Assembly (NCBI GenBank): GCA_902768665.1
Contig: CACXMA010000006.1
Location: 62,001-126,000 of the forward strand
Direction: 5' to 3'
Length of the DNA: 64,000 bases
DNA from: an uncultured Bacteroidia bacterium
GTDB taxonomy: Bacteria; Bacteroidota; Bacteroidia; Bacteroidales; UBA932
Shown piece after piece: positions 514 to 37,068 of the stretch. A program made the translations under genes and the position numbers. The notes below the pieces were generated by a model. That model had not been told where the DNA came from, searched no databases, and saw only the letters and a list, made by a program, of their open reading frames with translations. How positions within the stretch are numbered: the stretch's first letter is position 1; each line of letters starts with the position of its first letter.

Positions 514-1506
514 ATGAATTGTTATAAGCGTCTGATTTTGGTCTTGGGAGTGTTGGTTTCACCTGCTCTTCTTTGCGCGCAGAACGTGTCCGACCTGATC
601 ATCGCCGAGGTGATGGCGCAGCCGGACAGTGTCAGCGTAGTCGACGACTACGGCCGCAGGGGAGGCTGGATCGAGATTTACAACACGTCCATGGGAACCG
701 TCAAGTTCGGCGGCTGCTACCTCACGGACGATCCGGCGGAGCTTCGCAAGAGCCTCATCCCGAAAAATGACCTCGCGACCTCGCTGGGGCCCCGCCAGAG
801 CCGGCTGTTCTATGCCAGCGGACGGACCCATGACGGTACTTTCTATACCGATTTTACCCTTTCCCCCGGCAAGACGGTCTATCTCGTCAGCAACGATGGC
901 CGGACGGTTATCGATCAGCTGACCATTCCGGAGGATCTTCCCGCCGGCAAGAGCGTGGCCCGCATCGCGAATGACGCCAAGGGGCTGACCTTCGATACCG
1001 TATCGCCTTGCGATCCGACCCCGGGTGCCTACAACGGCGATCCGACGGCCGCATCCAAGTCCGACCAGATGGCCGAGCGCGACCCGCACGGCTGGATCCT
1101 GACCCTCGTGTCGGTAAGCGTCGTTTTCAGTGCTCTCGCCATCCTCTGGTTTTTCTTCTGGCTGCTGTTTGAGCGCCCCGCGAAAAAGAGATCTCTCGAC
1201 TCCGCTCGAGATGACAGATTCGCCGCTGGAGATGGCAAAAAAAGCGCTCGGAAAGGCAATCCTGTCATTTCGACTAAGGCCAAAGGCCGCATGGAGAAAT
1301 CTACTCCCGACGGCGAAGTCGCAGCGGCGATTGCCCTGGCGCTTGACATGGAGGAGAGCGGCGACGTCTATGCCGCCATTGCCCTGGCGCTGCATCTGGA
1401 ACTCGGCGCCACGGCCCACGATGCCGAAAGCTTCGTGCTGACTATCCGGCCTACTCCACATTCCGCATGGAACAACCCCGCCGACGGCTTCCGCCGGAGG
1501 CCGTAG
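514..1506 (+). CDS. oadG: Lamin-tail-domain / OadG-like fusion, decarboxylase sodium pump gamma subunit
   Basis: The 330-residue protein has a signal peptide (1-22) and an extracytoplasmic lamin-tail-like beta domain (about 25-180; WIEIYN, SLGPRQSRLFY, DTVSPCDPTPGAYN). A membrane helix follows (194-219), then the OadG-type C-terminus (266-330) with the AAIALAL helix repeated and an Asp/Glu-rich LTIRPTPHSAWN tail. OadG anchors the carboxyltransferase to the OadB pump; here it is followed by the biotin carrier and oadB, which supports the call. Residues about 226-265, between the helix and the C-terminus, are encoded by two copies of palindromic repeat A in opposite orientation and look like an in-frame insertion. 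The Met at 514 is chosen because the signal peptide starts there. Confidence 0.8.
   Translation: MNCYKRLILVLGVLVSPALLCAQNVSDLIIAEVMAQPDSVSVVDDYGRRGGWIEIYNTSMGTVKFGGCYLTDDPAELRKSLIPKNDLATSLGPRQSRLFYASGRTHDGTFYTDFTLSPGKTVYLVSNDGRTVIDQLTIPEDLPAGKSVARIANDAKGLTFDTVSPCDPTPGAYNGDPTAASKSDQMAERDPHGWILTLVSVSVVFSALAILWFFFWLLFERPAKKRSLDSARDDRFAAGDGKKSARKGNPVISTKAKGRMEKSTPDGEVAAAIALALDMEESGDVYAAIALALHLELGATAHDAESFVLTIRPTPHSAWNNPADGFRRRP
1188..1215 (-). repeat. Palindromic repeat A, in frame inside oadG
   Basis: This is the reverse-oriented copy of repeat A, encoding RSLDSARDD. It begins with GAGATCTCTCGA and ends with CTCGAGATGAC. Together with the forward copy at 1264-1302 it makes an inserted block between the transmembrane helix and the C-terminal domain of the OadG-like protein. 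Confidence 0.8.
1264..1302 (+). repeat. Palindromic repeat A (longer variant), in frame inside oadG
   Basis: The ends match repeat A (GTCATTTCGA at the start, GGAGAAATCT at the end), with a longer GC-rich middle than other copies. It reads VISTKAKGRMEKS in the oadG frame, the same phase as the plus-strand copies in the sigma-factor and GH43-CE15 genes. Confidence 0.75.
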
Positions 1507-1517
1507 AAAAGGAGTCG

Positions 1518-1596
1518 TCCATCTTTAGGCCCTAAAAGATGGATGAGTGGCAATAAAATGGGCACCCGTCCATAAATAAGTGCGAAAAAATGGACG
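1518..1596. promoter_or_regulatory. Two hairpins between oadG and the biotin carrier gene
   Basis: The 117 bp gap holds two inverted repeats. The first (1518-1543) has arms TCCATCTTT and AAAGATGGA around AGGCCCTA. The second has arms CGTCCAT (1567-1573) and ATGGACG (1590-1596). Neither has a convincing U-tract, so RNA processing, stability or attenuation that sets subunit ratios is more likely than a simple terminator. Confidence 0.5.
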
Positions 1597-1623
1597 ACAC
1601 AATAGAAACAAACGAAAAGCAAT

Positions 1624-2073
1624 ATGAAAGAGTACAGTTTCAAGATTAACGGTAAGCAGTACGATGTGACTGTGGAGTCCGTTGAAGGCAAGAATGCACA
1701 GGTCGTCGTGAACGGCGCCGCCTATAGCGTTGAGATCGAAAAGGGCGCCGCCGAGGCTCCCGCTGCTGCCCCCGTGGCCGCTCCGGCCCAGCAGGCTGCC
1801 CCTGCCCAGACCTCCCCGGCTCCGGCCGCTCCGGCTCCGGCTGCAAAGCCCGCCGGTCCCGGCACCAAGGTCGAGAGCCCGCTTCCGGGCGTGATCATCG
1901 AAGTGTCCGTCAAGGAAGGCCAGGCCGTCAAGATGGGCCAGAAGGTAGCCGTGCTCGAGGCCATGAAGATGGAGAACGAGATCGCCGCGACCGCCGACGG
2001 TACGGTGACGGCCATCCATGTCGCCAAGGGCGATTCCGTCCTCGAAGGCGCACCCATCGTGACGATTGCCTAA
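1624..2073 (+). CDS. Biotin carboxyl carrier subunit of a Na+-translocating decarboxylase
   Basis: The 149-residue protein has the standard layout: a short N-terminal segment (MKEYSFKINGKQYDV), an Ala/Pro-rich flexible linker (about 40-80), and a biotinyl domain with the biotinylation motif EAMKMEN near residue 118. The carboxylated biotin shuttles CO2 from the carboxyltransferase to the membrane pump OadB, encoded 6 bp downstream. The OadG-biotin carrier-OadB order is typical of Bacteroidales methylmalonyl-CoA or oxaloacetate decarboxylase operons used in propionate/succinate fermentation. The carboxyltransferase is not in the window, so the substrate cannot be decided here. Confidence 0.93.
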   Translation: MKEYSFKINGKQYDVTVESVEGKNAQVVVNGAAYSVEIEKGAAEAPAAAPVAAPAQQAAPAQTSPAPAAPAPAAKPAGPGTKVESPLPGVIIEVSVKEGQAVKMGQKVAVLEAMKMENEIAATADGTVTAIHVAKGDSVLEGAPIVTIA

Positions 2074-2079
2074 GGAATC

Positions 2080-3225
2080 ATGGAACACATCTACGAAAGT
2101 CTCATTCAGTTCTGGCAGTATACCGGCTTTGCCAACTGCACCTGGCAGAACCTGGCGATGATCGCGATCGGTATCGTGTTCATCACTGTGGCTATTCTGA
2201 AGGAGTGGGAGCCGCTGCTGCTCGTGCCGATCGGCTTCGGTATGATCATCGGCAACATCCCGATGTTCCCGGGCCTGAATATCGGCATCTATGAGGACGG
2301 ATCGGTCCTGAACACGCTCTATCAGGGCGTGAAACAGGGCTGGTATCCGCCGCTGATTTTCCTCGGCATCGGTGCCATGACCGACTTCTCGGCGCTGATA
2401 TCCCAGCCGCGGCTGATCCTGATCGGTGCGGCGGCGCAGATGGGTATCTTCGGGGCATACCTGCTCGCCCTGGCCTGCGGGTTCGCTCCCGCGGAGGCCG
2501 GTGCCATCGGCATCATCGGCGGCGCGGACGGCCCGACGGCCATCTTCCTGAGTTCGAAACTCGCACCGGACCTGATGGGCGCCATCGCCGTGTCGGCTTA
2601 TTCCTACATGGCCCTTGTGCCGGTCATCCAGCGTCCGATCATGCTCCTGCTGACCTCTAAGAAAGAACGTGCCATCGAGATGCCGAAGCCGCGCCAGGTT
2701 TCTCAGAAGGAGAAGATCATCTTCCCGGTTGTCGGTTTCCTCATCACGGCCTTCATTGTCCCGAGCGGCCTGCCGCTGCTGGGCATGCTCTTCTTCGGTA
2801 ACCTGCTGAAGGAAAGCGGCGTGACAAGGCGTCTGGCCGAAACGGCCCGCGGTCCGCTCATCGATGTGGTGACGACGCTCATCGGCCTCACGGTCGGTGC
2901 TTCGACCCAGGCGGACAAGTTCCTTTCCGGAAAGTCCCTGATGATCTTCGGCCTCGGCCTCGGTTCTTTCATCATCGCGACGACGTGCGGTGTCCTCTTT
3001 GTCAAGGGCATCAACCTTTTCATCCGCAACAAGGACCGCAAGATCAATCCGCTGATCGGCAATGCCGGCGTTTCCGCCGTGCCGGACAGCGCCCGCGTCT
3101 CGGAGGTCGTCGGCCGGGAAACCAACCCCAACAACCACCTTCTCATGCATGCCATGGGCCCGAACGTGGCCGGCGTCATCGGTTCTGCGGTCGCCGCAGG
3201 TATCCTCCTGAGCTTCCTCGGATAA
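2080..3225 (+). CDS. oadB: Na+-translocating decarboxylase beta subunit (OadB/MmdB)
   Basis: This 381-residue polytopic membrane protein is of usual family length. It carries the strongly conserved GIIGGADGPTAIF segment (about residues 144-156) that lines the Na+/carboxybiotin site, and the conserved stretch IGLTVGASTQADKFL in the second half. OadB decarboxylates carboxybiotin and exports Na+. It is the third gene of the OadG-biotin carrier-OadB unit. Its Na+ export could supply the gradient used by, or be complemented by, the V-ATPase encoded 3 kb downstream. Confidence 0.93.
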   Translation: MEHIYESLIQFWQYTGFANCTWQNLAMIAIGIVFITVAILKEWEPLLLVPIGFGMIIGNIPMFPGLNIGIYEDGSVLNTLYQGVKQGWYPPLIFLGIGAMTDFSALISQPRLILIGAAAQMGIFGAYLLALACGFAPAEAGAIGIIGGADGPTAIFLSSKLAPDLMGAIAVSAYSYMALVPVIQRPIMLLLTSKKERAIEMPKPRQVSQKEKIIFPVVGFLITAFIVPSGLPLLGMLFFGNLLKESGVTRRLAETARGPLIDVVTTLIGLTVGASTQADKFLSGKSLMIFGLGLGSFIIATTCGVLFVKGINLFIRNKDRKINPLIGNAGVSAVPDSARVSEVVGRETNPNNHLLMHAMGPNVAGVIGSAVAAGILLSFLG

Positions 3226-3253
3226 TCATGTACAACTATCAATATTTATGTTT

Positions 3254-3943
3254 ATGAAGCATCTTTTCAAACTGTTTGCCGGTGCGGCCGTCGTTTCCGC
3301 CGCCCTTGCTCTCAGCGCTCCCAAAGCATCCGCCCAGGACGACAAGATCATGGTCGGCAGCAATGTCGAGTACAACATCGGTCTCGGCTTCGGCATCGAC
3401 TTTATGGGGAATGTCCCGGATGAGTACGACTGGATGAAGAAAGCCTGGGGCTTTGACTTCTCCTTCAATTTCGCGGAGTTCTACTGGTCCGGACTCTCCC
3501 AGACCAACCAGTTCTACCTGACCCTCGGTCTCGAGAACAAGTCCTTCCGCCTGAAGGACGACACGGCTTTCGCCCTGCTGGACAATCATCTGGCCCCGGC
3601 CGTCCTCGGCAATGACGTCCTCAAGAAGTCCGCTCTCCGCGTCTTCAGCTGGAATGTCGGCATGGGTTACCGCTATGAGGCCAGCGATGATTTCGCCTTC
3701 TCCATCGGCCCCATCGTGAACTTCAACACCGGTTCCCGCATCAAGACCAAGTGGTACGACGAGAACGACAAGCTCCAGAAGAAGAAAACCAAATGGGGCA
3801 AGCAGGAGCTCGTCACCATCGAGTTCATGGCCAGAGTCGACCTCTACGGCGTCGGCCTCTATGTGAAGTACAGCCCGTTCCCGCTCTTCCAGGAGGAGTT
3901 CGGCCCGAAGGCCACGACCTGGTCCGTCGGCATCATGCTGTAA
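3254..3943 (+). CDS. Outer-membrane beta-barrel protein, paralogue of the 5511-6401 gene
   Basis: A signal peptide ends at ASAQ, and about 205 residues of alternating amphipathic strands follow, ending in the outer-membrane signature TTWSVGIML. It shares with the protein at 5511-6401 the blocks RVFSWN, FNTGSRIKTKWYD, KWGKQELVT and a near-identical C-terminus, so the two are paralogues. The start at 3254 gives a clean MKHLFK signal peptide; an ATG two codons upstream (3248) is possible. The function is unknown. The barrel is smaller than TonB receptors and resembles the PorT-like barrels of Bacteroidetes. A strong terminator follows. Confidence 0.8.
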   Translation: MKHLFKLFAGAAVVSAALALSAPKASAQDDKIMVGSNVEYNIGLGFGIDFMGNVPDEYDWMKKAWGFDFSFNFAEFYWSGLSQTNQFYLTLGLENKSFRLKDDTAFALLDNHLAPAVLGNDVLKKSALRVFSWNVGMGYRYEASDDFAFSIGPIVNFNTGSRIKTKWYDENDKLQKKKTKWGKQELVTIEFMARVDLYGVGLYVKYSPFPLFQEEFGPKATTWSVGIML

Positions 3944-3950
3944 GTTTTTT

Positions 3951-3981
3951 AAAAAAAGTGGCCGGGCAGGTCACTTTTTTT
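3951..3981 (+). terminator. Intrinsic terminator after the first barrel gene
   Basis: Thirteen-base arms (AAAAAAAGTGGCC and GGTCACTTTTTTT) pair with one mismatch around GGGCA, and the 3' arm ends in seven T residues. This is a bidirectional-looking terminator 8 bp after the stop codon. It separates the decarboxylase/barrel genes from the sigma-factor operon. Confidence 0.85.
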
Positions 3982-4026
3982 GTTACAAAGCGAGCTGATC
4001 TGCGTTAATAGGTTGGAAAGCCCAAA

Positions 4027-4542
4027 ATGAGCGAAGATTTTCTGACATCCGCGTTCGTCCGGTTGCGAACGGTGCTGAAGGGGACGGCCAGCCGCCTCCT
4101 CGGAAACGAAGCCGCCGCCGACGATGCCCTCCAGGACGCTTTCTACAAGCTCTGGAACCGGCACTACGCCCTCACGAGCGAAAGCGATGCCGCCGCGCTG
4201 CTCAGCCGGACGGTCCGTAACGAGGCCGCCAGTATGCTCCGCCAGCGCAAACGTCATCCTTCTGTCGTTTCGAGCGAAGTCGAGAAATCTGTTTCCGCGG
4301 TGGCGGAAGAAGATCCGGCCCCGAATCGGGAGACGCTCCTGCAGGAAGTCCGGAGCCTCATTTCGAGGGAGCTGACGCCGCTGCAGCAGGAGATTCTGCG
4401 GAGAAGGGATTATGAGGGAGAGGAATATGCCTCCATCGCCGAGGACCTCGGGATGCAGGAGCCGGCCGTGAGGATGCAGCTTTCCAGAGCGCGGAAAACC
4501 ATCCGCGAGACATACAGGAAACAACACAGGAACCATGAATAA
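4027..4542 (+). CDS. ECF-type RNA polymerase sigma factor
   Basis: The 171-residue protein has sigma region 2 (about 8-75; DDALQDAFYKLWN) and region 4 (about 110-165; LTPLQQEILRRRDYEG and ASIAEDLGMQEPAVRMQLSRA), the two-domain layout of ECF factors. The linker (residues 80-88, VVSSEVEKS) is encoded by an in-frame copy of palindromic repeat A. The gene overlaps the next gene, a membrane anti-sigma candidate, by 8 bp, so the two are probably translationally coupled. Likely targets include the barrel genes on either side, but no promoter motif was identified. Confidence 0.9.
   Translation: MSEDFLTSAFVRLRTVLKGTASRLLGNEAAADDALQDAFYKLWNRHYALTSESDAAALLSRTVRNEAASMLRQRKRHPSVVSSEVEKSVSAVAEEDPAPNRETLLQEVRSLISRELTPLQQEILRRRDYEGEEYASIAEDLGMQEPAVRMQLSRARKTIRETYRKQHRNHE
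4264..4290 (+). repeat. Palindromic repeat A, in frame inside the sigma-factor gene
   Basis: This 27 bp copy starts GTCGTTTCGAGCG and ends GTCGAGAAATCT. It encodes residues 80-88 of the ECF sigma factor, in the linker between regions 2 and 4. It has the same reading phase as the plus-strand copies at 1264, 35203 and 36247. Confidence 0.85.
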
Positions 4543-5062
4543 AGACAAGCAATACTATCTGGATCTCGCCGAGCGCTGGTTCGACGCGGAGACTTCCGAG
4601 GCGGAGGAGAAGGAGCTCAGGCGCTTTCTCGCCGCGACGGAGGACCCCGATTTCGACGAGGCCCGCGCCGCATTGGGTTTTCTCGCTGCCTCCAGCCTCC
4701 GGGCAGAGGCACCCAAAAGCCCGATCGATTTGCCCCGGCAAATCGGTCCTCGGCGGACGGCAGGGCTTTTGGGTACCTCTGCCACTACGGCTTCCGGCAG
4801 CAGCAAGCGCCGGTGGCTGATTCCGGCCGTGGCGGTGGCTGCGTCGCTGGTGCTGGCCTTCTTCTTCGGGCGGATGACCGCGCCGGTGGAGATCGTTCCG
4901 GTCGGTGCGGGGACCTGCGTTTCCTATGTGCACGGCGTCGAGGTGAACGACGAAGATTTCGCCGTCGCGACGATGGAGAGCACCCTTTCCGATTTCTTTT
5001 CTCCGGCTGCCGCTCCGGATCCCCGGACGGACCTTTCCCTGATCTTTAACGCAAACGAGTAA
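4535..5062 (+). CDS. Putative membrane anti-sigma factor
   Basis: The 175-residue protein has a short acidic cytoplasmic domain (about 1-55; YLDLAERWFDAETSEAEEKEL, as in FecR/anti-sigma N-termini), a linker, one membrane helix (about 94-113) and a periplasmic tail of about 60 residues. Residues 56-83 of the linker are encoded by a perfect hairpin element (repeat D', 4702-4783) inserted in frame. The position, an 8 bp overlap after an ECF sigma gene, is the main reason for the functional call. The periplasmic part is too short for a full FecR domain. Confidence 0.7.
   Translation: MNKDKQYYLDLAERWFDAETSEAEEKELRRFLAATEDPDFDEARAALGFLAASSLRAEAPKSPIDLPRQIGPRRTAGLLGTSATTASGSSKRRWLIPAVAVAASLVLAFFFGRMTAPVEIVPVGAGTCVSYVHGVEVNDEDFAVATMESTLSDFFSPAAAPDPRTDLSLIFNANE
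4702..4783. repeat. Hairpin repeat D', in frame inside the anti-sigma gene
   Basis: This 82 bp palindrome has outer arms GGCAGAGGcACCC and GGGTaCCTCTGCC, inner arms AAAAGCCC and GGGCTTTT, and an extra central pair GATTTGCC/GGCAAATC. The core, including GGTCCTCGGCGGACGGCAGG, matches repeat D at 33453-33545 and 39335-39427. The outer arms are entirely different yet still pair. It encodes residues 56-83 of the anti-sigma protein without a stop. Confidence 0.85.
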
Positions 5063-5063
5063 T

Positions 5064-5498
5064 ATGAAACGATTCCTTTTGATAACCCTGCTGCTCTTCC
5101 TGCCGATTGGCTGGCTGCTGATGGCCCAGTCCTCCTTTGCCGTGAAGAAGGTGTTCGACGGGAAGGTGCTTGGCAGCAAAGCCGTGGTCGAGACCATGAT
5201 CTCGGGCCGGCAGCTGGCATCCTACCACCTCGACTCTTTCCACAGCCTCCGCTATTCCGCCGGTGAGGAAGAGGCCGCCGTCGTGGAGGAGCTTGTCCTT
5301 GCGGACGCGACGCATGCCGCCGAGAAGGAAACCGTCTTTGTCGACGGGAAACTGACCTACGCCGTCCTGGCTTTCCAGTCGGATCCTGACGGCAACGAGT
5401 ACATCTGCTACCAGAACGACGGCACGACGGCAACCCTCGTGTATATGTACGGTTCGGCGACCCTCGACGAGCTGAAGAACATTTTCAAGACCAGATAA
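5064..5498 (+). CDS. Small exported protein of the sigma/anti-sigma operon
   Basis: The 144-residue protein has a clear signal peptide (1-26, ending in QSSFA). The mature domain of about 115 residues contains YHLDSFHSLRY, DPDGNEYICYQN and a C-terminal LDELKNIFK. It starts 1 bp after the anti-sigma gene and ends 12 bp before the second barrel gene, so it belongs to the same operon. It resembles the short periplasmic proteins encoded after ECF pairs in Bacteroides (DUF6108 is my best guess, not verified). A role in sensing or in assembling the downstream barrel is inference from position only. Confidence 0.7.
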   Translation: MKRFLLITLLLFLPIGWLLMAQSSFAVKKVFDGKVLGSKAVVETMISGRQLASYHLDSFHSLRYSAGEEEAAVVEELVLADATHAAEKETVFVDGKLTYAVLAFQSDPDGNEYICYQNDGTTATLVYMYGSATLDELKNIFKTR

Positions 5499-5510
5499 AA
5501 CGATTAAGAT

Positions 5511-6401
5511 ATGAAAAAGCACGCTTTGATCCTCTTTACGCTGGCCGCGCTCTGCGGCACAGCCCCCGTTCTCTCCGCCCAGGACACCCTGACGGTCGTG
5601 AACCCCTCCAAGGTCCAGGTCATTACGGCCTCCGGCAGCCAGCAGGTGGAAATCTTCGGCTCCGAGCAGAACCCCGACTATTACTTCTCCTCCTCCATCG
5701 AGACCAGTTCGAGCGCCGTCGTCAGCACCCGTGAGCGTCTCTCCCAGCGGCTGGATTTTTCCGTGCCGATCTTCGGCGACGATAAGCCCATCCCGGGAAG
5801 CCGCAAACCGTATGGTTCGGTCGACCTCGCCATCAGTCCGGGTTTCGGCGTCAGTTTCCCTGGCAGCATCGAGGACGATGCCTACAGCCCGATGCGGCAG
5901 GCCTGGGGGCTTGATTTCACCCTCGGCATCATCAATGCCGACTTCCATCCCTGGGGTGGGAAGTCCAACCTCTATTTGAATTTCGGCCTCGAGGACAAGT
6001 CCTTCAAGATCCGCGGCGACAAGATGTATGTCAAGCAGGACGACGGCACGCTCGGCTTCCGGGATTTCCCCGGCACCCCGAAATGGTCTGCCCTCCGCAT
6101 CTTCAGCTGGAACCTCAGCGCCGGCTACTATCAGCACATCTGGAAAGATTTCGGCCTGTTCGTCGAGCCGGTCCTCAATTTCAACACCGGCTCCCGCATC
6201 AAGACCAAGTGGTATGACGCCAATGACCGGAAGGTCAAGGAGAAAGTCAAGTTCGGAAAGCAGAAGCTTGTGACTTACGAGCTGATGGGCGGTATCAAGA
6301 TCGGCAGTGTCAAGGCCTATGTCAAATACAACCCCGGCAACCTCCTCGAGAAGGGATTCGGCCCCGATTTCGCCACCTGGTCCGTCGGCATCATCCTCTA
6401 A
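5511..6401 (+). CDS. Outer-membrane beta-barrel protein, paralogue of the 3254-3943 gene
   Basis: The 296-residue protein has a signal peptide ending at LSAQ and an N-terminal extension of about 70 residues absent from its paralogue. The barrel domain shares RVFSWN, FNTGSRIKTKWYD, KFGKQKLVTYE and ATWSVGIIL with the protein at 3254-3943. It is the last gene of the ECF operon and is followed by a terminator. The shared blocks suggest duplication around the sigma-factor operon, with the barrel being the regulated cargo. The transported or bound ligand is unknown. Confidence 0.8.
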   Translation: MKKHALILFTLAALCGTAPVLSAQDTLTVVNPSKVQVITASGSQQVEIFGSEQNPDYYFSSSIETSSSAVVSTRERLSQRLDFSVPIFGDDKPIPGSRKPYGSVDLAISPGFGVSFPGSIEDDAYSPMRQAWGLDFTLGIINADFHPWGGKSNLYLNFGLEDKSFKIRGDKMYVKQDDGTLGFRDFPGTPKWSALRIFSWNLSAGYYQHIWKDFGLFVEPVLNFNTGSRIKTKWYDANDRKVKEKVKFGKQKLVTYELMGGIKIGSVKAYVKYNPGNLLEKGFGPDFATWSVGIIL

Positions 6402-6424
6402 ACATTCATATTGATACATTTCTT

Positions 6425-6458
6425 CTTCCGCGCCTCTTGGGGGTGCGGAAGATTTTTT
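6425..6458 (+). terminator. Terminator ending the ECF operon
   Basis: Arms CTTCCGC (6425-6431) and GCGGAAG (6445-6451) enclose a G/C-rich loop, and an A plus six T residues follow. It overlaps the -33 region of the V-ATPase promoter, so the boundary between the two operons is very compact. Confidence 0.75.
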
Positions 6459-6467
6459 ATATATTTG
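6437..6467 (+). promoter_or_regulatory. Promoter of the V-ATPase operon
   Basis: TATATTTG (6460-6467) fits the Bacteroidetes -7 element TAnnTTTG, and CTTG ending at 6439 lies 20 bp upstream, the usual spacing for the -33 TTTG box. The first ATG of the operon is 40 bp downstream. Confidence 0.7.
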
Positions 6468-6507
6468 TAGGTTACTACAAAGATTATATTAAACCAATAA
6501 CACAGAT

Positions 6508-7754: not shown

Positions 7755-7767
7755 TAACAGACACGAT

Positions 7768-9510: not shown

Positions 9511-9512
9511 CC

Positions 9513-11437: not shown

Positions 11438-13664
<2,227 letters not shown>

Positions 13665-21533: not shown

Positions 21534-21559
21534 GTCATTCCGAGCTTGCCAGGAAATCT
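21534..21559 (+). repeat. Diverged repeat A directly abutting the hydF start codon
   Basis: GTCATTCCGAGC at the start and AGGAAATCT at the end match repeat A with a few changes. It fills nearly the whole 28 bp between hydG and hydF, and its last base touches the hydF ATG, so the repeat now forms the translation-initiation region. Confidence 0.6.
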
Positions 21560-25612: not shown

Positions 25613-25618
25613 GGCGGT

Positions 25619-26383: not shown

Positions 26384-26403
26384 GATAACGTGTTTAACTC
26401 CTG

Positions 26404-26411: not shown

Positions 26412-26466
26412 AGCATTCCGGTGGAAATTACCCTTTGCGGTTAATCGTCGTGTTTCAAAAATTTCT

Positions 26467-26474
26467 TATCTTTG
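26467..26474 (+). promoter_or_regulatory. -7 element for the cytidylate-kinase-like gene
   Basis: TATCTTTG lies 19 bp before the ATG at 26494 and is divergent from the VanX-like promoter about 60 bp away. No clear -33 box is visible. Confidence 0.6.
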
Positions 26475-26493
26475 TCCTATAATGCATTATATT

Positions 26494-28279: not shown

Positions 28280-28282
28280 GCG

Positions 28283-29026: not shown

Positions 29027-29034
29027 TCTAATGA

Positions 29035-29514: not shown

Positions 29515-29516
29515 GG

Positions 29517-31277
29517 CTACTTGATGCTTTTGTCAAAATACTGTGTGTGAAGCAGGTGATGGGCCCTTTCGCTCATCGGCTCGCCGAGGAATTCCTTGTA
29601 GAGCTTCTGGATGTCAGGGTTCTCGTGGCTCTTGCGGATGGGCTTGCCGGCGTCTTCGGCGTAGATGGCTCTCGCGCGGGCCTTGATAATCTCGACGTTG
29701 CCGTGGTGGTAGGGCTGGCCGGCGCCGTCGATGCAGCCGCCGGGGCAGGCCATGACTTCCACGACATGGTAGTCGAGCTCTCCCTTGCGCAGCTTCTCCA
29801 TCAGGTAACGGGCGTTGCCGAGGGTGTGGGCGACACAGACCTTGAGCGGGAAGCCCGCGAGGTCGATGGTCGCTTCCTTGATGCCCTCGAGGCCGCGGAC
29901 CTCCTGGAAGTCGATCCTCGGGAGGGTCTTGCCGGTGTACACCTCATAGACGGTGCGGAGGGCAGCCTCCATCACGCCGCCGGTCGCGCCGAAGATGGCG
30001 GCGGCACCGGAGCTTTCGCCGAGCGGCTTGTCGAAGTCGGTGTCCTCGAGGCAGCGGAAGTCGATGTTGGAGCGCTTGATGAGGCGGGCGAGCTCACGCG
30101 TGGAGATGGAATAATCCACATCCGGATTGCCGTCGACCTTGAATTCCTCGCGCTCGCACTCATATTTCTTGGCGAGGCAGGGCATGATGGAGACGACGAC
30201 GAGCTTCTCGCGCGGAATGCCCATCTTCTGTGCCCAGTAGGTCTTGGCGATGGCGCCGAACATCTGGGCCGGGGACTTTGCGGAGGACGGGTAGTCCTTC
30301 AGGTCCGGGAACTGGTGCTCGTAGAAATTGACCCAGGCAGGGCAGCAAGAGGTCATGATCGGAAGCTTGACGCTCTTGTCTCCGCCGAGGTAGGCTTTGA
30401 GGCGGTGGAGGATTTCGGCGCCTTCTTCCATGATGGTAAGGTCGGCGGCGAAGTCGGTGTCAAACACATAGTCGAAGCCGAGGCGGCGGAGGGAGGTCGC
30501 GAGCTTGCCGGTCACGATGGTGCCGGGCTCATAGCCGAATTCCTCGCCGAGGGCGACGCGAACGGCGGGCGCGGGCTGCGCGACAACGATCTTGTCCGGG
30601 TTGCAGAGGTCGTCGAGGAGACGGTCCGTGTTGTCGCGCTCGGTCAGGGCGCCGGTCGGGCACACCGCGACGCACTGGCCGCAGTAGGTGCAGTCCGTTT
30701 CGGAGAACATGCGGTCGAAGGTCGGGGCGATGGTGGCGTCGAAGCCGCGGCGGATGGCGCCGAGGACGCCTACCGTCTGGACATTGTTGCACACGCTTTC
30801 GCAGCGGCGGCAGAGGATGCACTTGTCCATGTTGCGGGTGATGGCGACGGTCTGCTCGTGCTTGCGCTCGGACTGCTCGCCCTTGTAGGTCATCTCGCGG
30901 ATGTTGAAACGCGTGACGAGCTTCTGGAGCTCGCAGTGGTTGCACTTGGGGCAGGTGAGGCAGTCGTTCGGGTGGTCGGAGAGGATGAGCTCGGCGACGG
31001 TCTTGCGAGCGCGCACGACGCGGGCGGAGTTAGTCTTGACGACCATGCCTTCCGTGACCATGGTGGCGCAGGAAGGGGCCAGGTTGCGGCGGCCTTCGAT
31101 CTCGACGACGCAGATGCGGCAGGAAGCAGGGGAGTTCTTGACGCAGGTGCCCTTGAGGTCGATGTGACAGAGCGCGGGAATGGCAATCCCCACGGAAGCG
31201 GCCGCATCGAGGACGGTGGTTCCTTTCGCGACGCTCACCGGGCGGCCGTCGATAGTCAGGTTGATCATATTTTCCAT
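29517..31277 (-). CDS. hydA: [FeFe] hydrogenase catalytic subunit HydA
   Basis: The 586-residue protein has an N-terminal [2Fe-2S] domain (Cys37-Cys70), a His-ligated [4Fe-4S] site (HPNDCLTCPKCNHC, 102-115) and two [4Fe-4S] clusters (153-163 and 196-206). The H-cluster domain has all three signatures: TSCCPAW (309-315), MPCLAKKYE (365-373) and EVMACPGGCIDGAGQP (507-522). The proton-relay Cys of the first motif is present, so the enzyme should be active. With HydB and HydC it forms an NAD(H)-linked, possibly electron-bifurcating, enzyme that makes or uses H2. The start at 31277 lies 8 bp after the hydB stop. Confidence 0.96.
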   Translation of the reverse strand: MENMINLTIDGRPVSVAKGTTVLDAAASVGIAIPALCHIDLKGTCVKNSPASCRICVVEIEGRRNLAPSCATMVTEGMVVKTNSARVVRARKTVAELILSDHPNDCLTCPKCNHCELQKLVTRFNIREMTYKGEQSERKHEQTVAITRNMDKCILCRRCESVCNNVQTVGVLGAIRRGFDATIAPTFDRMFSETDCTYCGQCVAVCPTGALTERDNTDRLLDDLCNPDKIVVAQPAPAVRVALGEEFGYEPGTIVTGKLATSLRRLGFDYVFDTDFAADLTIMEEGAEILHRLKAYLGGDKSVKLPIMTSCCPAWVNFYEHQFPDLKDYPSSAKSPAQMFGAIAKTYWAQKMGIPREKLVVVSIMPCLAKKYECEREEFKVDGNPDVDYSISTRELARLIKRSNIDFRCLEDTDFDKPLGESSGAAAIFGATGGVMEAALRTVYEVYTGKTLPRIDFQEVRGLEGIKEATIDLAGFPLKVCVAHTLGNARYLMEKLRKGELDYHVVEVMACPGGCIDGAGQPYHHGNVEIIKARARAIYAEDAGKPIRKSHENPDIQKLYKEFLGEPMSERAHHLLHTQYFDKSIK

Positions 31278-31285
31278 AGGGCTTG

Positions 31286-33190
31286 CTAGATTACTTTGAT
31301 GGCTCCGAACTTGCAGCGGGACAGGCACATGCCGCAGCGGATACACTTTTCAGGGTTGATGACGAACGGTTTGCGGACCTCGCCGGCGATGGCTTCGGCA
31401 GGGCAGCCGCGGGCGCAGGCGGAGCAGCCCTTGCACAGCACCGGATCGATGCTGTAGGTCAGCAGGGCCTTGCACTTGTGGGCGCGGCAGACATGGTCCC
31501 GGACGTGCTCTTCGTATTCGTCGCGGAAGTTGGAGAGCGTGGAGAGGACCGGATTCGGAGAGGTCTGGCCGAGGCCGCAGAGGGCGGTATCCTTGATGAC
31601 CTTGGCGAGGTTCTCGAGCTTGTCGAGGTCTTCCATCGTGCCGCGGCCCTGGGTGATCTTGTCGAGGATCTCGAGCATGCGCTTGTTGCCGATACGGCAC
31701 GGGGTGCACTTGCCGCAGGACTCGCCGACGGTGAATTCGAGGAAGAATTTCGCGACGGAGACCATGCAGTCGTCCTCGTCCATGACGATCATACCGCCGG
31801 AGCCCATCATGGAGCCCGCCGCGGCGAGGGATTCGTAGTCGATCGGGATGTCGAGGTGCTTCTCGGTGAGGCAGCCGCCGGAAGGACCGCCCGTCTGGAC
31901 TGCCTTGAATTTCTTGCCGTTCTTGACGCCGCCGCCGATGTCGTAGATGATTTCGCGGAGGGTCGTTCCCATCGGGACTTCGATGAGGCCCACGTTGTTG
32001 ATCTTGCCGGCGAGGGCGAAGACCTTGGTGCCCTTGGACTTTTCGGTGCCGATGGAGGAGAACCAGGCCGGGCCCTTGGTGAGGATCACGGGGACGTTGG
32101 CGAGGGTCTCGACGTTGTTGACGTTGGTCGGATGGCCGAAGTAGCCGGACTCGGCCGGGAACGGCGGCTTGAGCGTCGGCTCGCCGCGCTTGCCTTCCAT
32201 GGAATGGATCAGGGCCGTCTCCTCGCCGCAGACGAACGCACCGGCGCCGTAGCGGATCTCGATGTCGAAGGAGAACTTGGTGCCGAGGATGTTCTCGCCG
32301 AGGAGGCCGTATTCGCGGGCCTGGGCGATGGCGACCTGGAGGCGGTGGACCGCCAGCGGGTATTCGGCGCGGATATAGATGAGGCCGTGGTTGGCGTTGA
32401 TGCAGTAGCCGCAGATCATCATGGCTTCGATGACGGAGTTCGGGTCGCCTTCCATGATGGAGCGGTCCATGAACGCGCCCGGGTCACCTTCGTCGGCGTT
32501 GCAGACGACGTATTTGTCCGGAGCGTCGAACTTGCGGGCGATCTCCCACTTCACGCCGGTCGGGAAACCGGCGCCGCCGCGTCCGCGAAGTCCGCTGGCC
32601 TTGATGTCGGCGAGGACCTCGAGGCTGTCGCGTTTGAGGCTGTCGGCGAGGGCCTTGTAGCCGTCTCTGGCGATGTATTCGAGGATGTTCTCCGGGTCGA
32701 TGAAACCGCAGTTGCGAAGCGCGATTCTGAGCTGCTTGCGGTAGAAATTCATGTGCTTGGAGTCGGCGATGTGCTGTCCCGAGCCGGGGTCAAGGTAGAG
32801 GAGACGTTCGACCTTTTCGCCGCCGATGATGTGTTTGGTGACGATTTCTTCCACATCATCCGGACGGACAGAGGTGTAGAAGGTGTTGTCCGGGATAATC
32901 TTGACGATGGGGCCCTTCTCGCAGAAACCGAAGCAGCCGGGAACGATGACTTCGACCTTGTCGGCGATGCCATGTTCCTTCAGCGCTGCGTGGAAGTTGT
33001 CGACGATTTTGGCACTCTCGGAGGCCTTGCAGCCGGTACCGCCGCAGCAGAGAATCTGCATGTGCGGCGTGCCTTTGTCCAGTCCGCAGGCGATTTCCGT
33101 CACGGACGTGTTGCTGGCCTCTCTAACGGACAACGCTTGAATCGCTTCCCGTCTGATGCTCTCGAGAGCATCGGCTGAGGTAATTTTCAT
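31286..33190 (-). CDS. hydB: [FeFe] hydrogenase flavin subunit HydB (NuoF-like)
   Basis: The 634-residue protein has an N-terminal thioredoxin-like [2Fe-2S] domain (LCCGGTGCKASES, VPGCFGFCEKGP) and a NuoF domain with NAD and FMN sites (GLRGRGGAGFPTGVKW, CNADEGDPGAFMDRS). A [4Fe-4S] site follows (ESCGKCTPCR), and the C-terminal ferredoxin domain has two clusters (CKGCSACARGCP, CIRCGMCLSRC). It connects NAD(H) to the hydrogenase. The ATG at 33190 starts MKITSADALESI; the frame extends 40 codons upstream but the extension covers a promoter-like sequence. Confidence 0.95.
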   Translation of the reverse strand: MKITSADALESIRREAIQALSVREASNTSVTEIACGLDKGTPHMQILCCGGTGCKASESAKIVDNFHAALKEHGIADKVEVIVPGCFGFCEKGPIVKIIPDNTFYTSVRPDDVEEIVTKHIIGGEKVERLLYLDPGSGQHIADSKHMNFYRKQLRIALRNCGFIDPENILEYIARDGYKALADSLKRDSLEVLADIKASGLRGRGGAGFPTGVKWEIARKFDAPDKYVVCNADEGDPGAFMDRSIMEGDPNSVIEAMMICGYCINANHGLIYIRAEYPLAVHRLQVAIAQAREYGLLGENILGTKFSFDIEIRYGAGAFVCGEETALIHSMEGKRGEPTLKPPFPAESGYFGHPTNVNNVETLANVPVILTKGPAWFSSIGTEKSKGTKVFALAGKINNVGLIEVPMGTTLREIIYDIGGGVKNGKKFKAVQTGGPSGGCLTEKHLDIPIDYESLAAAGSMMGSGGMIVMDEDDCMVSVAKFFLEFTVGESCGKCTPCRIGNKRMLEILDKITQGRGTMEDLDKLENLAKVIKDTALCGLGQTSPNPVLSTLSNFRDEYEEHVRDHVCRAHKCKALLTYSIDPVLCKGCSACARGCPAEAIAGEVRKPFVINPEKCIRCGMCLSRCKFGAIKVI

Positions 33191-33234
33191 GTTGTTTAGT
33201 ATTGTGTAAGTTTTAGTGTCGCTGTTTGGGCTTA

Positions 33235-33265
33235 CTAAGTTACAGATTTTCTCGCATTCCGCAAA
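33235..33265 (-). promoter_or_regulatory. Candidate promoter of hydBAC
   Basis: On the minus strand, TTTG (33265-33262) and TAACTTAG (33242-33235) are 19 bp apart. This is the -33/-7 geometry of Bacteroidetes promoters, with one mismatch in the -7 element. It lies 45 bp upstream of the hydB ATG. Confidence 0.5.
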
Positions 33266-33346
33266 CGATTCGATAGTTTTTTTCGCGTTTTTGCTGTCAT
33301 TCTTCGCCAATAACCGGCATGCCCGACCCGATCGGGCATCCCTTCC

Positions 33347-33436
33347 GTCATGCCCAGCGTATGCAGGGCATCCCTTTCGTCATGCCCAGCGTATGCAGGG
33401 CATCCCTTTCGTCATGCCCAGCGAATGCAGGGCATC
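33347..33436 (+). repeat. Three tandem 32-bp repeat C units
   Basis: Units start at 33347, 33379 and 33411 with an exact 32 bp period. Each has arms ATGCCC and GGGCAT around AGCGTATGCA (AGCGAATGCA in the last), with CCCTTTC as the joint. Single C units recur at 39444-39469, 39476-39501 and, inside a gene, at 44391-44418. Confidence 0.9.
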
Positions 33437-33452
33437 TGTCCTCCGGTTTCCG

Positions 33453-33545
33453 GACAGTAGCCGTCAAAAGCCCGATCTCAGGGGGCTGCTTCGCATCCCC
33501 TCCTTCGGTCCTCAGCGGACGGCAGGGCTTTTGACGGCCACTGTC
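33453..33545. repeat. Hairpin repeat D, left copy
   Basis: This 93 bp palindrome has outer arms GACAGTaGCCGTC and GACGGCcACTGTC, inner arms AAAAGCCC and GGGCTTTT, and an internal AGGGGGCTGC/GCATCCCCT hairpin. The core GGTCCTCAGCGGACGGCAGG is shared with D' in the anti-sigma gene; the outer arms differ but also pair there. Confidence 0.88.
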
Positions 33546-33635
33546 CTTCAACCTGCGGCCAGCTGACTATCAAGGCTCATCCTCCGCACGCTGAGTGTAT
33601 TAGTCTTCGGTACGTGTTGATCTTCTTGGCACGTC

Positions 33636-33835
33636 GCAGGTCAGAAGCCGTACCGCTGAAGGTTAGACATCTTACCGCTGCAGGTTAGGCATCGTACCGT
33701 AGCAGGTCGGGCTGTGCGATGCAGCAGGTCTGCAAAAATCCTTTGACCTGCTACACTAGATGTTGCTACACTGCCGATTTGCGTCGCAGGTCGCGAGAAA
33801 AATGCAGACCTGCTACGTTTTGCCGTCTGACCTGC
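33636..33835. repeat. Cluster of GCAGGTC heptamers in both orientations
   Basis: Exact GCAGGTC occurs at 33636, 33702, 33724 and 33786, and its complement GACCTGC at 33745, 33807 and 33829, with a GCAGGTT at 33680. Several are extended (GTAGCAGGTC, GACCTGCTAC, GTCGCAGGTC). Pairs facing each other could form hairpins of 30-50 bp. No coding function was found for this interval. Confidence 0.75.
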
Positions 33836-33890
33836 GGCACCTTTCTGTTGGATATGTAATCGCATTGGGTAAACATATTTCAGGGCGACA

Positions 33891-33955
33891 ACCTTCCAGT
33901 CTCTGTTTTGTAAATAATTGAATGTCAGTTGTTTACAAAACCAAGCCTGGAAGGT
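33891..33955. repeat. 65-bp element F1
   Basis: Terminal inverted repeats ACCTTCCAG (33891-33899) and CTGGAAGGT (33947-33955) bound exactly 65 bp. Inside is a second palindrome, GTTTTGTAAA (33904) with TTTACAAAAC. It has the look of a very small MITE or a structured site. Confidence 0.85.
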
Positions 33956-33973
33956 GGCCTGTTTTTTCGGTGG

Positions 33974-34038
33974 ACCTTCCAGTTAATAATTTGTAAGCAT
34001 TTGAGTGTGATACGGTTATGTATCACTGGCTGGAAGGT
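33974..34038. repeat. 65-bp element F2
   Basis: It has the same 9 bp ends as F1 and the same 65 bp length, but a different inner palindrome (GTGATAC and GTATCAC around GGTTAT). The segment TTTGTAAGCATTTGAGTGT aligns loosely with F1. The copy at 38681-38745 is its near-identical inverse. Confidence 0.85.
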
Positions 34039-34078
34039 GCGGGGCGTGGAATGACGGGTGAATTGCCGCAGGTGCGTA

Positions 34079-34153
34079 GGAGGAGCGTTTTCAAAAGCAT
34101 TTTCCCGGCCGTAGGGTCGCCGCAAGGCGATTTGCTTTTGAAAATGCTCCTCC
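34079..34153. repeat. 75-bp hairpin element E
   Basis: Arms GGAGGAGCGTTTTCAAAAGC and GCTTTTGAAAATGCTCCTCC pair over 20 bp with one G-T type mismatch. They surround a GC-rich loop containing TCGCCGCAAGGCGA. A 3'-truncated inverse copy is at 38579-38642. It lies in the 5' region of the GH43-CE15 gene. Confidence 0.88.
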
Positions 34154-34173
34154 GAAGCGCCGGTGATCAGATG

Positions 34174-37068
34174 ATGAAACGATTCTTCACGCTAGTGTGC
34201 GCCCTCGTGGTGCTGGTAACCGCGACGGTAAGTGGACAGCCGCTTCGCTATACCAATCCCGTGATCCATGCGGACTATTCCGACCCGGATGTGTGCGAGG
34301 CGGGGGGCGTGTATTATATGACGGCTTCGTCGTTCAACTGTTTCCCGGGGCTGCCGATTCTCCGCTCCACGGACCTGGTGCATTGGGAGCTGGTCAATTA
34401 TGCGCTGACGGATTATCCGGGGCCGGATTGGAAGACGCCGGAGAAAAAGAGAAAGGCCGCTGCACAGGCGCCGGAAGACGATTTCCGGACGCGGGTGCAG
34501 CACGGGAATGCGGTCTGGGCTCCGGCGATCCGCTACCACGGCGGCTGGTTCTACATCTTTGTGGGCGATCCCGACCGCGGCGTTTTCATGGTCCGGACGC
34601 AGGATCCGGAGGGCCGTTGGGAAGCGCCCGTCTGGGTAGTACGGCAGAAGGGATTCATCGACCCGTGCCCGCTTTGGGACGAGGACGGCCAGGCGTGGCT
34701 CTCGCACGGCATCGCCGGATCCCGGGCAGGCCTGAAGAGCGTGCTCTACCTGGCGCCGATGGATCCGGACGGAACCCGCCTCCTGGGGCCGTCAAAGGCC
34801 ATTTTCGACGGGCACCGGACACAGCCGACGATCGAAGGGACCAAGCTCTACAAACAGGACGGCAGGTACTATCTCTTCGCGCCCGCCGGGGGCGTGGCGA
34901 CGGGCTGGCAGACCGTGCTTCGCGCAGACCGGATTACGGGACCATGGGAGGAGCGCATCGTCATGGCATGGGCGCCCGGGACCGTCAACGGGCCGCACCA
35001 GGGAGCCTGGGTGCGGGATACCGCCGGTGACGACTGGTTCCTGCACTTCCAGGACAAAGGCGCCTACGGCCGCATCGTACACCTCCAGCCGATGGCCTGG
35101 AAAGACGGCTGGCCCGTGATCGGCGAGGACCCGGACGGCGACGGCGTCGGGCAGCCGGTGAGAGCATGGACGGCGCCGAAGACATCGGAAGGCCATTCGC
35201 CTGTCATTTCGACCGAACGAAGGGAGTGGAGAAATAATCTCTACGGTCTGCCGCCGGCGTGGCAGTATCCGGCGATTCCGTCGCCGTACTGGCATATGGC
35301 GCTGGCGGAGGACGGCGTACGGCTCTTCAGCGTCGAGCAGCGGGAGCGGGGGCTCTGGAACTGCCCGAACCTGCTGCTGCAGAAGTTCCCGGCCGAGCGT
35401 TTTACCGTCACGGCGCGGCTTGCTTTCCGTCCCAATCCCCAGCTGAAATCGCGGGACGAGGAGGCGGGATTCGTGGTGATGGGCAACGATTATGCGCTCC
35501 TGCGGATCCGGGATGCCAGGGACCATGCGCAGCTCCAGTTTGTCACCTGCATCGGTGCGTCAAAGGGCGCCGACGAGACGGCGGAGGACCTGACGGCCCT
35601 TCCCTATACCGCGATAAGAATCGACGACCGCCACGCCTCCGGCAACGTCCCGAAGGTAAAATACACCGACATCCCCGAAGCCGCCCTGTGGGTGCGGCTG
35701 GAGGTGCGCGCCCAGGCCGTTGAGGGCAATGTCCCTGATGCGGTCTGCCAGTTCTCCTATTCGCTTGACGGCAAGCGCTATACGAAAGTCAATCAGAAGT
35801 TTACGGCCCGGCCGGAGATGTGGACCGGCGCGAAGTTCGGCTTCTTCTGCAACCGCTACAGCCCGAAGAACGACGCCGGCTGTCTCGATGTCACCGACCT
35901 CCTCGTGAAGCCCGAATTCGCCCCGCTCGAAGGCTTCAACTATGACGAAGCCGCCGTGCCTGCGTACACCCTCCCGGAACTGCTGACGACCGTCGCCGGC
36001 AAGCCGGTCCGGACGGTTGGGGAGTGGGAGAACGTTCGCCGTCAGGAGGTACTCCATCTGATGGAAGAGGAATATGGAACCGTCCCGCCGCGTCCTGCGG
36101 AGGAATCCTGGCACGTCGTCAGTGAGGGGCCCGCTCTCGGGGGCGCCGCCATTCGCCGCGAAGTGGCCATCGACCTCGGCGCCGGCGAGCGGATCAACCT
36201 CCTGCTGCTTATCCCCGCCAATGGCCCCGTGAGCGAAGACTCGCCTGTCATCTCGGGCGAAGTCGAGAGATCTTACCCCTGCTTCCTCGGGGTCAATTTC
36301 TTCGGGAACCACACCACCTGCGACGACCCCGCCATCTCCCTGCCGGACACGCTCCGCTGCCGTCCCGATTTCATCGTGGAGCCGCGGGGAAGCCAGTCCC
36401 ACCGCTGGCCGCTGGAGACCATCATCGCCCGGGGTTATGCCGTCGCCACCTTCTGCTGCGAGGACATCGCGCCGGACCACGACCGCTGCCGGGGCATCCG
36501 GGACCGCTATCCGGAGTACAGTTGGGGCCATCTCGCCGCCTGGGGCTGGGGCCTTTCCCGCGCCCTGGACTATCTGCGTGAGGGCGACCCGGACATCAAC
36601 GGGGAGCGCGTCGCCGTCTTCGGCCATTCCCGGATGGGCAAGGCCGCTGTCTGGGCCGGGGCCCGCGACACGCGGTTTGCCATGGTCATTTCGAATGCAT
36701 CCGGCTGCGGGGGCGCCGCCCTGAGCCGCCGCCGCTTCGGCGAGACCGTCCGCCGCATCAACACGCACTATCCCTACTGGTTCGCGGAATCCTTCCGGAA
36801 ATACAACGACAACGAGGACGCGATGCCTTTCGACCAGCACTTCGTCCTCGCCCTGATTGCCCCCCGTCCGCTGTTTGTGGAAAGCGGCACGGAGGACCGC
36901 TGGTCAGACCCCCGCGGAGAGCAGCTCGGCCTGGAGGCTGCGCTGCCGGTGTATAGCCTCTATGGCGCCGAAGAGAAGGCCGCATATGGAATGCGCCCCG
37001 GCAAGCATGAGATACTGGCCGGGGACTGGGAGCATTATCTGGATTTCGCGGACCGCTTCCTCTTCTAG
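34174..37068 (+). CDS. Secreted GH43 glycosidase - CE15 glucuronoyl esterase fusion
   Basis: The 964-residue protein has a signal peptide (1-22). The GH43 five-blade propeller (about 24-340) has the general base in HADYSDPDVC, the pKa-setting Asp in GFIDPCPLWD and the acid Glu in TIEGTKLYK. A concanavalin-like domain (about 355-590) and a CE15 esterase (about 610-964; GHSRMGKAAVW with the Ser, VESGTEDRWSDP with the acid, GKHE with the His) follow. It should remove xylose or arabinose units and cleave glucuronoyl esters in plant cell wall. Residues 344-354 and 692-700 are encoded by in-frame copies of repeat A. The stop codon overlaps the serpin stop (CTAG). Confidence 0.9.
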   Translation: MKRFFTLVCALVVLVTATVSGQPLRYTNPVIHADYSDPDVCEAGGVYYMTASSFNCFPGLPILRSTDLVHWELVNYALTDYPGPDWKTPEKKRKAAAQAPEDDFRTRVQHGNAVWAPAIRYHGGWFYIFVGDPDRGVFMVRTQDPEGRWEAPVWVVRQKGFIDPCPLWDEDGQAWLSHGIAGSRAGLKSVLYLAPMDPDGTRLLGPSKAIFDGHRTQPTIEGTKLYKQDGRYYLFAPAGGVATGWQTVLRADRITGPWEERIVMAWAPGTVNGPHQGAWVRDTAGDDWFLHFQDKGAYGRIVHLQPMAWKDGWPVIGEDPDGDGVGQPVRAWTAPKTSEGHSPVISTERREWRNNLYGLPPAWQYPAIPSPYWHMALAEDGVRLFSVEQRERGLWNCPNLLLQKFPAERFTVTARLAFRPNPQLKSRDEEAGFVVMGNDYALLRIRDARDHAQLQFVTCIGASKGADETAEDLTALPYTAIRIDDRHASGNVPKVKYTDIPEAALWVRLEVRAQAVEGNVPDAVCQFSYSLDGKRYTKVNQKFTARPEMWTGAKFGFFCNRYSPKNDAGCLDVTDLLVKPEFAPLEGFNYDEAAVPAYTLPELLTTVAGKPVRTVGEWENVRRQEVLHLMEEEYGTVPPRPAEESWHVVSEGPALGGAAIRREVAIDLGAGERINLLLLIPANGPVSEDSPVISGEVERSYPCFLGVNFFGNHTTCDDPAISLPDTLRCRPDFIVEPRGSQSHRWPLETIIARGYAVATFCCEDIAPDHDRCRGIRDRYPEYSWGHLAAWGWGLSRALDYLREGDPDINGERVAVFGHSRMGKAAVWAGARDTRFAMVISNASGCGGAALSRRRFGETVRRINTHYPYWFAESFRKYNDNEDAMPFDQHFVLALIAPRPLFVESGTEDRWSDPRGEQLGLEAALPVYSLYGAEEKAAYGMRPGKHEILAGDWEHYLDFADRFLF
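35203..35235 (+). repeat. Palindromic repeat A, in frame inside the GH43-CE15 gene (first copy)
   Basis: It starts GTCATTTCGACCG and ends GAGTGGAGAAAT, encoding VISTERREWRN (residues 344-354). It lies at the junction between the GH43 propeller and the next domain. The preceding bases TTCGCCT are also shared with the second copy in this gene. Confidence 0.85.
36247..36273 (+). repeat. Palindromic repeat A, in frame inside the GH43-CE15 gene (second copy)
   Basis: It starts GTCATCTCGGGCG and ends GTCGAGAGATCT, encoding VISGEVERS (residues 692-700) in a surface-loop position of the N-terminal part of the CE15 domain. The phase is the same as for the other plus-strand copies. Confidence 0.85.

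Follow-up and report, generated by a model that had tools for sequence, protein, structure and literature searches.

A short TGTC-tagged palindromic repeat residing between and, in frame, within genes of a Bacteroidales lineage

The window, that is, the whole stretch of 64,000 nucleotides analyzed here, covers bases 62001-126000 of contig C6 in the genome assembly of an uncultured Bacteroidia bacterium (G000; 2.03 Mb, 26 contigs, 88% complete) and has a GC content of 61%. It contains copies of a short palindromic repeat, element A, within three host genes and between genes, along with copies of two sister elements, B and C (Table 1). The first host gene, predicted to be oadG, has a Lamin Tail Domain (LTD), but its OAD_gamma match of 18.8 bits is under the Pfam cut-off of 27 bits, and the gene is referred to here as OadG-like. 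The sigma-factor gene was not called by the codon-usage caller; its copy was added by hand, with Pfam domains on both sides of it. All seven copies of element A named in the original prediction are present and were recovered at E <= 3e-4 by a covariance model (R1) built from 23 copies, the next matches in the window being sister elements (E 0.12). Among the positions given, that of the first copy was corrected: on the minus strand, it spans 1189-1215 and is one base shorter than proposed.

Table 1. Copies of elements A, B and C in the window, with the host genes of element A (positions are those of the window).
Feature	Position	Strand	Remarks
Host gene 1	586..1506	+	Lamin Tail Domain PF00932, E 1.6e-9; weak OAD_gamma
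Element A, 27 nt	1189..1215	-	antisense in LTD/OadG-like gene, read RSLDSARDD; head-to-head with copy at 1264
Element A, 39-nt form	1264..1302	+	sense, phase 0 (VISTKAKGRMEKS), in LTD/OadG-like gene
Host gene 2, ECF-type sigma factor	4027..4542	+	PF04542 residues 12-76, PF08281 residues 114-158
Element A, 27 nt	4264..4290	+	sense, phase 0 (VVSSEVEKS), between sigma-70 regions 2 and 4
Element A, 26-nt form	21534..21559	+	fills the gap between predicted gene end 21531 and next predicted start 21560
Sister element C (CGTCATGCCC..GGGCATC)	33334..33436	+	tandem copies
Host gene 3	34018..37068	+	GH43 + GH43_C2 + glucuronoyl esterase (CE15-type)
Element A, 35-nt form, altered 3' end (AAATAATCT)	35203..35235	+	sense, phase 0, at GH43/GH43_C2 border
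Element A, 27 nt	36247..36273	+	sense, phase 0 (VISGEVERS), in CE15 domain
Sister element B	38536..38563	+	
Sister element B	39080..39107	-	
Element A, 27 nt	39153..39179	-	intergenic
Sister element C	39444..39507	-	tandem copies, inverted orientation
Sister element B	44447..44474	+	upstream of predicted start 44525; inside the gene if the longer ORF from 44372 is used
Sister element B	59566..59593	+	in frame (SSFHGSSVES) in altronate dehydratase gene 59129-60625

Many further copies were found when the genome was searched with a profile, as the original prediction had proposed. A strict pattern of element A matches 53 times (including two nested double counts), against 0 matches for the reversed control, and R1 has 79 matches with E <= 10, of which 77 stay below 0.05; these R1 counts are lower bounds, taken from the best 150 of 1199 candidates scored, among which the window copy at 21534 is not found. 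With this copy added, 78 places were classified, and 76 copies were used for flank counts after two rows had been dropped: C5:92197, which is 79 nt long and by eye a natural recA-like sequence, and C1:194867, a stretch of 51 nt in which the start of A is fused to B. Sister copies were taken from five genomes (G003, G004, G005, G006 and G026), with 134 listed matches, 2 of which (18 and 74 nt) were removed before the counting of half-copies and of start and stop triplets beside intergenic copies.

The consensus of element A is (C/T)T-GTC-ATTTC-GA...-GAAAT-CT. Among the window copies, for which common ends had been proposed, the one at 35203 departs from them at its 3' end. Among the 76 own copies, the length is 27 nt in 46, 35 nt in 14, 26 nt in 12, 39 nt in 3 and 38 nt in 1, and additional forms of 37, 41 and 42 nt are found in the sister genomes. 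The base preceding GTC (position -1) is T in 76/76 own and 132/134 sister copies, position -2 is C or T in 72/76 and 112/134, respectively, and the head reads GTCAT in 69/76 own copies. The stem opens with complementary A/T at positions 1 and 2 (AT...AT) in 200/207 copies, and its outer arms vary by double changes, with ATTTC/GAAAT in 149 copies, ATTCC/GGAAT in 24 and ATCTC/GAGAT in 18. This outer stem of 5 bp is fully paired in 199/207 copies, compared with a mean of 158.5 and a maximum of 166 after shuffling, a comparison that favors paired arms because the copies were collected with a model that rewards pairing. Inner pairing is irregular and the center is of variable length. The tail consists of CT, any base and then T in 43/76 own copies, where CCA is typical of the CGTC-tagged repetitive extragenic palindromes (REPs) discussed below. 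As predicted, frames other than the one used are open in the 27-nt consensus, namely all three in sense and two of three in antisense.

Elements B and C have the ends GTCAT...ATC in common with A but contain other stems, and their heads are preceded by C (C-GTC). Element B can be written as GTCATTCCACGG-loop-CCGTGGAATCT, with a 9-bp stem, a 5-nt loop and a CGTC tag. The altronate dehydratase gene, which carries a copy of B, is a further repeat-decorated gene that was absent from the original prediction. Clusters of C and B are also included in long inverted repeats (33315-34172 and 38560-39533; 197 nt at 97%, 104 nt at 96% and 83 nt at 100%). Between these repeats lie a serpin gene (37065-38387; PF00079, E 3e-76) and the greater part of the GH43-CE15 gene. 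Elsewhere in the window, a direct repeat of 300 nt (96% identical; 56767-57066 and 57217-57516) lies within one large predicted gene.

Neighboring pairs of element A no more than 120 nt apart (n = 40, half-copies excluded) are head-to-head in 28 cases, head-to-tail in 9 and tail-to-tail in 3. An extra head in the same orientation is present within 45 nt upstream of 62/208 copies, with peaks at spacings of 21 nt (16 copies) and 24 nt (12 copies), and an extra head within 35 nt downstream of 31/208 copies has no comparable peak. The right arm is kept by only 2 of the 52 copies that have a head within 32 nt upstream, and such half-copies often finish in a pyrimidine-rich stretch immediately before the full copy. 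In polA of G006 (L237), a ladder of four half-copies precedes the full copy at the first of the two polA sites described below.

Of the 76 usable copies in the genome, 24 reside within genes and are read in frame (23 placed by the codon-usage caller, plus the sigma-factor copy). This is far below the predicted coding share of the window (about 91%), so that copies are depleted in genes, which are either avoided or purged. Hosts with Pfam assignments include DNA polymerase I (polA, two copies), DNA polymerase III delta' (holB), mnmG, rsmE, rho, yidC, diaminopimelate epimerase, topoisomerase IV/gyrase A and a class I/II aminotransferase; other hosts encode an FMN-binding protein, a U32 peptidase, a GH2 enzyme and a DNA alkylation repair enzyme (alkD).

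Insertion into linkers or loops was proposed for all in-gene copies of the window. Comparison with orthologues supports this for the OadG-like gene and comparison with solved structures for the CE15 domain, but not cleanly for the GH43 border and only weakly for the sigma factor. Alignments were made, among the matches listed, with 29 polA, 16 alkD, 17 OadG-like, 9 sigma-factor (8 aligned) and 7 GH43 sequences; with the own genome included, polA is present in 36/37 genomes, alkD in 20/37, the OadG-like gene in 28/37 and sigma-factor homologues in 10/37. In alkD, the linker has 50 residues in G000 and 20-44 in the 16 orthologues, and in the OadG-like gene 55 residues compare with 24-45 in 17 sister homologues. 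At polA site 2, 35 residues compare with 23-32 in 29 orthologues. At polA site 1, the linker of 32 residues compares with a median of 22 (18-61) in the same number of orthologues, 5 of which have unrelated linkers of equal or greater length, which counts against insertion at this site. The repeat peptide is missing and the linkers are shorter in sister alkD, OadG-like and mostly polA genes. Set against the two best solved CE15 structures among the matches listed, the CE15 domain is longer by about 10 residues at its copy, and in MnmG, RsmE and PatB the repeat likewise corresponds to residues that solved structures lack. For diaminopimelate epimerase the solved-structure matches listed stop at or near the copy. 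The sigma-factor linker, in contrast, has 36 residues, within the range of 28-39 seen in 8 aligned homologues (those of the other genomes being only distant, 33-48% identical), so insertion there is weakly supported. A linker of 31 residues at the GH43 border compares with 28-29 in 7 distant homologues, that is, 2-3 extra residues; this copy, which brings little net gain, is a weakly supported case and not a clean insertion, and the distant GH43-CE15 relatives are too diverged to offer a clean empty site.

Some of the same linkers have been used again in sister genomes. Other extra residues occur in the repeat-bearing linker of alkD in G003, G005 and G036, an A-like peptide is found at polA site 1 in G005, a full copy occupies this site in G006 (outside the 29 orthologues), and a head-to-head pair of A lies at the GH43/GH43_C2 border of the G005 homologue. 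This reuse suggests that the linkers are either hot spots or long-occupied sites undergoing turnover. In the orthologues examined, the same residues were not seen at these positions in distant genera, which would have made the similarity convergent, and further copies, whose absence would also have refuted the original prediction, are present genome-wide.

The reading phase of in-gene copies is strongly biased. As had been claimed, the four plus-strand copies in window genes share one phase, phase 0, and the bias extends to the genome, where phase 0 is used by 14/14 sense copies of multiple-of-three length (sigma-factor copy included), and to the five sister genomes, where it is used by 14/15. 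The pooled value, 28/29, differs from one third with a binomial p of 9e-13. Suitable target sites do not favor this phase: sites preceded by YT in window genes fall in phases 0, 1 and 2 at 860:2187:2526, phase 0 being the rarest at 15% (p 5e-22 against this null), and a target requiring T alone gives a phase 0 share of 21%. Simulated sense insertions were recovered by the gene caller in every phase (60/60, 60/60 and 57/60), so the bias is not made by the caller; for antisense insertions, recovery was 60/60, 0/60 and 54/60, the 0 being due to a stop codon. Because some in-gene copies of the sisters occupy homologues of genes that also carry A in G000 (FMN-binding protein, polA), and a tandem duplicate is present in one gene, the independent cases are nearer 26 than 29. 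In other forms the picture varies. Antisense 35-nt copies are in phase 1 in 8/8 cases, one of the other two phases containing a stop, and sense 35-nt copies have no single phase (1, 1, 1, 2, 2, 0, 0, 0; n = 8, including one of 37 nt and one altered). The few remaining antisense copies have mixed phases. Sense copies of B are in phase 2 in 7/8 cases, as counted at loci chosen for A with up to 4 mismatches and with palindromic double reads excluded. The favored frame has the top disorder propensity among the open frames of 27- and 39-nt sense, 35-nt antisense and sense B copies, and for sense copies of 35 nt the values are alike in phases 1 and 2 and lower in phase 0. Because the favored frame is the most linker-like in most forms, the phase bias is read as purifying selection on the repeat peptide, which would be its cause.

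Element A is widespread and patchy. Matches were found in 19/37 genomes of the genus (0-106 copies per genome), in 4/24 genomes of the order outside the genus (one with 36 copies), and at least once in 53/296 genomes and 30/140 genera of a phylum sample; all of these values are lower bounds, as part of the candidates was scored in these searches and stricter filters were applied, by which weak copies may be missed. A viral vehicle was considered and rejected, the exact 28-nt form having 0 matches in viral contigs.

Could the in-gene copies have arisen by convergence or local slippage in linkers under low constraint instead of by insertion? The little net length brought by the GH43-border and sigma-factor copies agrees with this explanation, and the half-copy spacing of 21 or 24 nt suggests that local slippage has acted secondarily. 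One and the same sequence, with its invariant T at -1, is nevertheless present in many unrelated genes and at intergenic sites, with no match for the reversed pattern, and clear length differences are seen at alkD, the OadG-like gene and polA site 2. That copies inside genes and between them are identical largely refutes convergence or slippage, which appears highly improbable. The main role of element A might also be that of a signal acting in RNA or DNA and kept by selection, such as a terminator, an mRNA stabilizer or a translational spacer between genes, with intragenic copies as by-products. About two thirds of the copies are intergenic, an ATG lies within 6 nt downstream of 25/157 intergenic copies (11, 17 and 12 at shifted positions), and a stop-like triplet lies just upstream of 30/157 (28, 20 and 21 at shifted positions). 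Such a role is nonetheless difficult to reconcile with the 18/37 genus genomes that have no match under the stricter filters, by which weak copies may be missed, with the lack of any Rfam family that reaches its gathering score in the window, and with the folding of three A forms, as RNA or DNA, which is no better than that of shuffled sequences (z -0.70 to 0.61). A primary signal function is therefore considered quite unlikely.

A classical REPtron, in which A would be the cognate REP of a RAYT or IS200-type transposase of the genome and would be moved by single-strand transposition, follows the original suggestion to look for a transposase with matching ends. In its favor, all 12 genus genomes with at least 8 copies of A have at least 2 Y1_Tnp matches, against 14/25 of the others (Fisher p 0.0066), and Y1 counts correlate with A counts across the genus genomes (Spearman 0.46), a correlation confounded by shared ancestry and assembly quality. 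Because RAYT-like genes are also carried by many A-poor genomes, it is no proof of a RAYT link. At the loci themselves, the suggested link was not found: in seven genomes, a model match to A lies within 350 nt of the Y1 gene at 0/22 IS200-type loci (one upstream flank being limited to 111 nt by the end of its contig), and a looser scan brought up one A head with one mismatch (L296) and C-type heads at two G026 loci (L304 and L305). G000 has two Y1_Tnp gene matches and, by protein search, five RAYT-like genes, only 1/5 of which has A within 1 kb, on a single side and inside alkD. The REPtron explanation is accordingly judged unlikely. Some RAYT-like genes have repeats of their own: L294, L302 and L303 are flanked on both sides by matching hairpins that differ from one gene to another, and L031 has GTAG-bearing GTGGCTACCCTCC repeats on both sides, as read by eye.

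The kind of element to which A belongs has already been described. The original prediction knew of no equivalent in Bacteroidales, but CGTC-tagged REPs, including intragenic ones and Bacteroidetes hosts, were published in 2013 (Di Nocera et al., PMC3733652); literature searches for in-gene palindromes in Bacteroidales found no report among the papers listed. According to that survey, these REPs have in common with A an unpaired (C/T)GTC tag and a stem opening with AT, their short unpaired tail, most often CCA, may have its counterpart in the CT tail of A, and they have in common with the present genome several stem types per genome, a majority of head-to-head dimers and some in-gene copies. 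DNA polymerase I, also a host here, is among the REP-tagged proteins listed (PMC3733652). The tag variants TGTC and CCTC are mentioned there, A being of the TGTC type. The survey further states that transposase genes show no association with CGTC REPs and that no dedicated transposase was found (PMC3733652), and the absence of model matches to A within 350 nt of the 22 Y1 loci is in line with this statement. The differences lie in the CT tail, the variable-length center and the many head-to-tail half-copies of A, head-to-tail dimers being described as negligible among CGTC REPs (PMC3733652). The stem of 8-9 bp and loop of 4-5 nt given there for CGTC REPs match the stem and loop sizes of element B, which fits the tested parts of the definition. 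Element A, with its irregular 5-bp stem, falls outside these sizes and is best called a variant.

The proposed analogy with Rickettsia palindromic elements (RPEs) is borne out, as A is an interspersed palindromic repeat residing in frame in genes. RPE-4 and RPE-6 are equated with CGTC REPs (PMC3733652), and RPE-4, RPE-6 and RPE-7 have the GTCAT end motif (ATGAC on the other strand) in common with A (PMC3767692). In-frame residence in conserved genes, extra ATGAC motifs near copies and inserts at equal positions in orthologues are also described for RPEs (PMC3767692). Element A is set beside these families by its end motif and by such shared traits, and it differs from them in its occurrence in another phylum, in the strong single phase of its multiple-of-three forms and in its range of 0-106 copies within a genus. 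In R. japonica, ATGAC motifs are reported as enriched in extended regions of RPE-4 (PMC3767692), and this enrichment and the half-copies of A may be the same phenomenon. GTAG REPs and REPtrons are similarly short tagged palindromes in many copies, but the tag of A differs and RAYT genes, at the 22 loci, are not flanked by A.

Altogether, element A very probably belongs with the CGTC/TGTC-tagged REPs, as a short palindrome that is interspersed in the genome, spreads in bursts and has its in-gene copies filtered by selection. This reading draws on direct observations, namely the copies with their stems and in-frame reading, shorter orthologue linkers at several sites, patchiness and phase bias. 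Counting against it are the folding of A, no better than that of shuffled sequences, the CT tail, the small gain in length at the sigma-factor and GH43-border sites and the single sense copy among 29 that is out of phase 0. Element A, mostly 26-39 nt long, would multiply in bursts in some lineages of the genus, alongside B and C, presumably mobilized in trans by an unlinked enzyme. Copies would settle mostly between genes. A copy arriving in a gene would survive where the frame is kept, the site is a linker or loop and the frame read encodes a linker-like sequence (VISSEVEKS for A, SFHGLSVES for B), and other in-gene copies would be removed by selection. A more tentative and rather doubtful extension is that palindromes of the CGTC type continually supply Bacteroidales proteins with new linkers, that the enzyme spreads units and adds heads beside old ones, giving ladders of 21-24 nt, and that selection keeps the soluble-linker frame, so that translation would shape the family. 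New here are the phase bias, the within-genus patchiness and the tandem half-copies, in a kind of element that was already known. Because core proteins carry repeat-derived linkers, the in-frame residues matter for annotation and protein modeling. In-gene palindromes, already known from Rickettsia and other bacteria, are displayed with unusual clarity by this lineage. With 0-106 copies per genome, filled and unfilled core genes and a phase bias, the genus offers a natural experiment outside Rickettsia, in which both the way palindromes enter genes and the nature of what moves CGTC REPs become testable.
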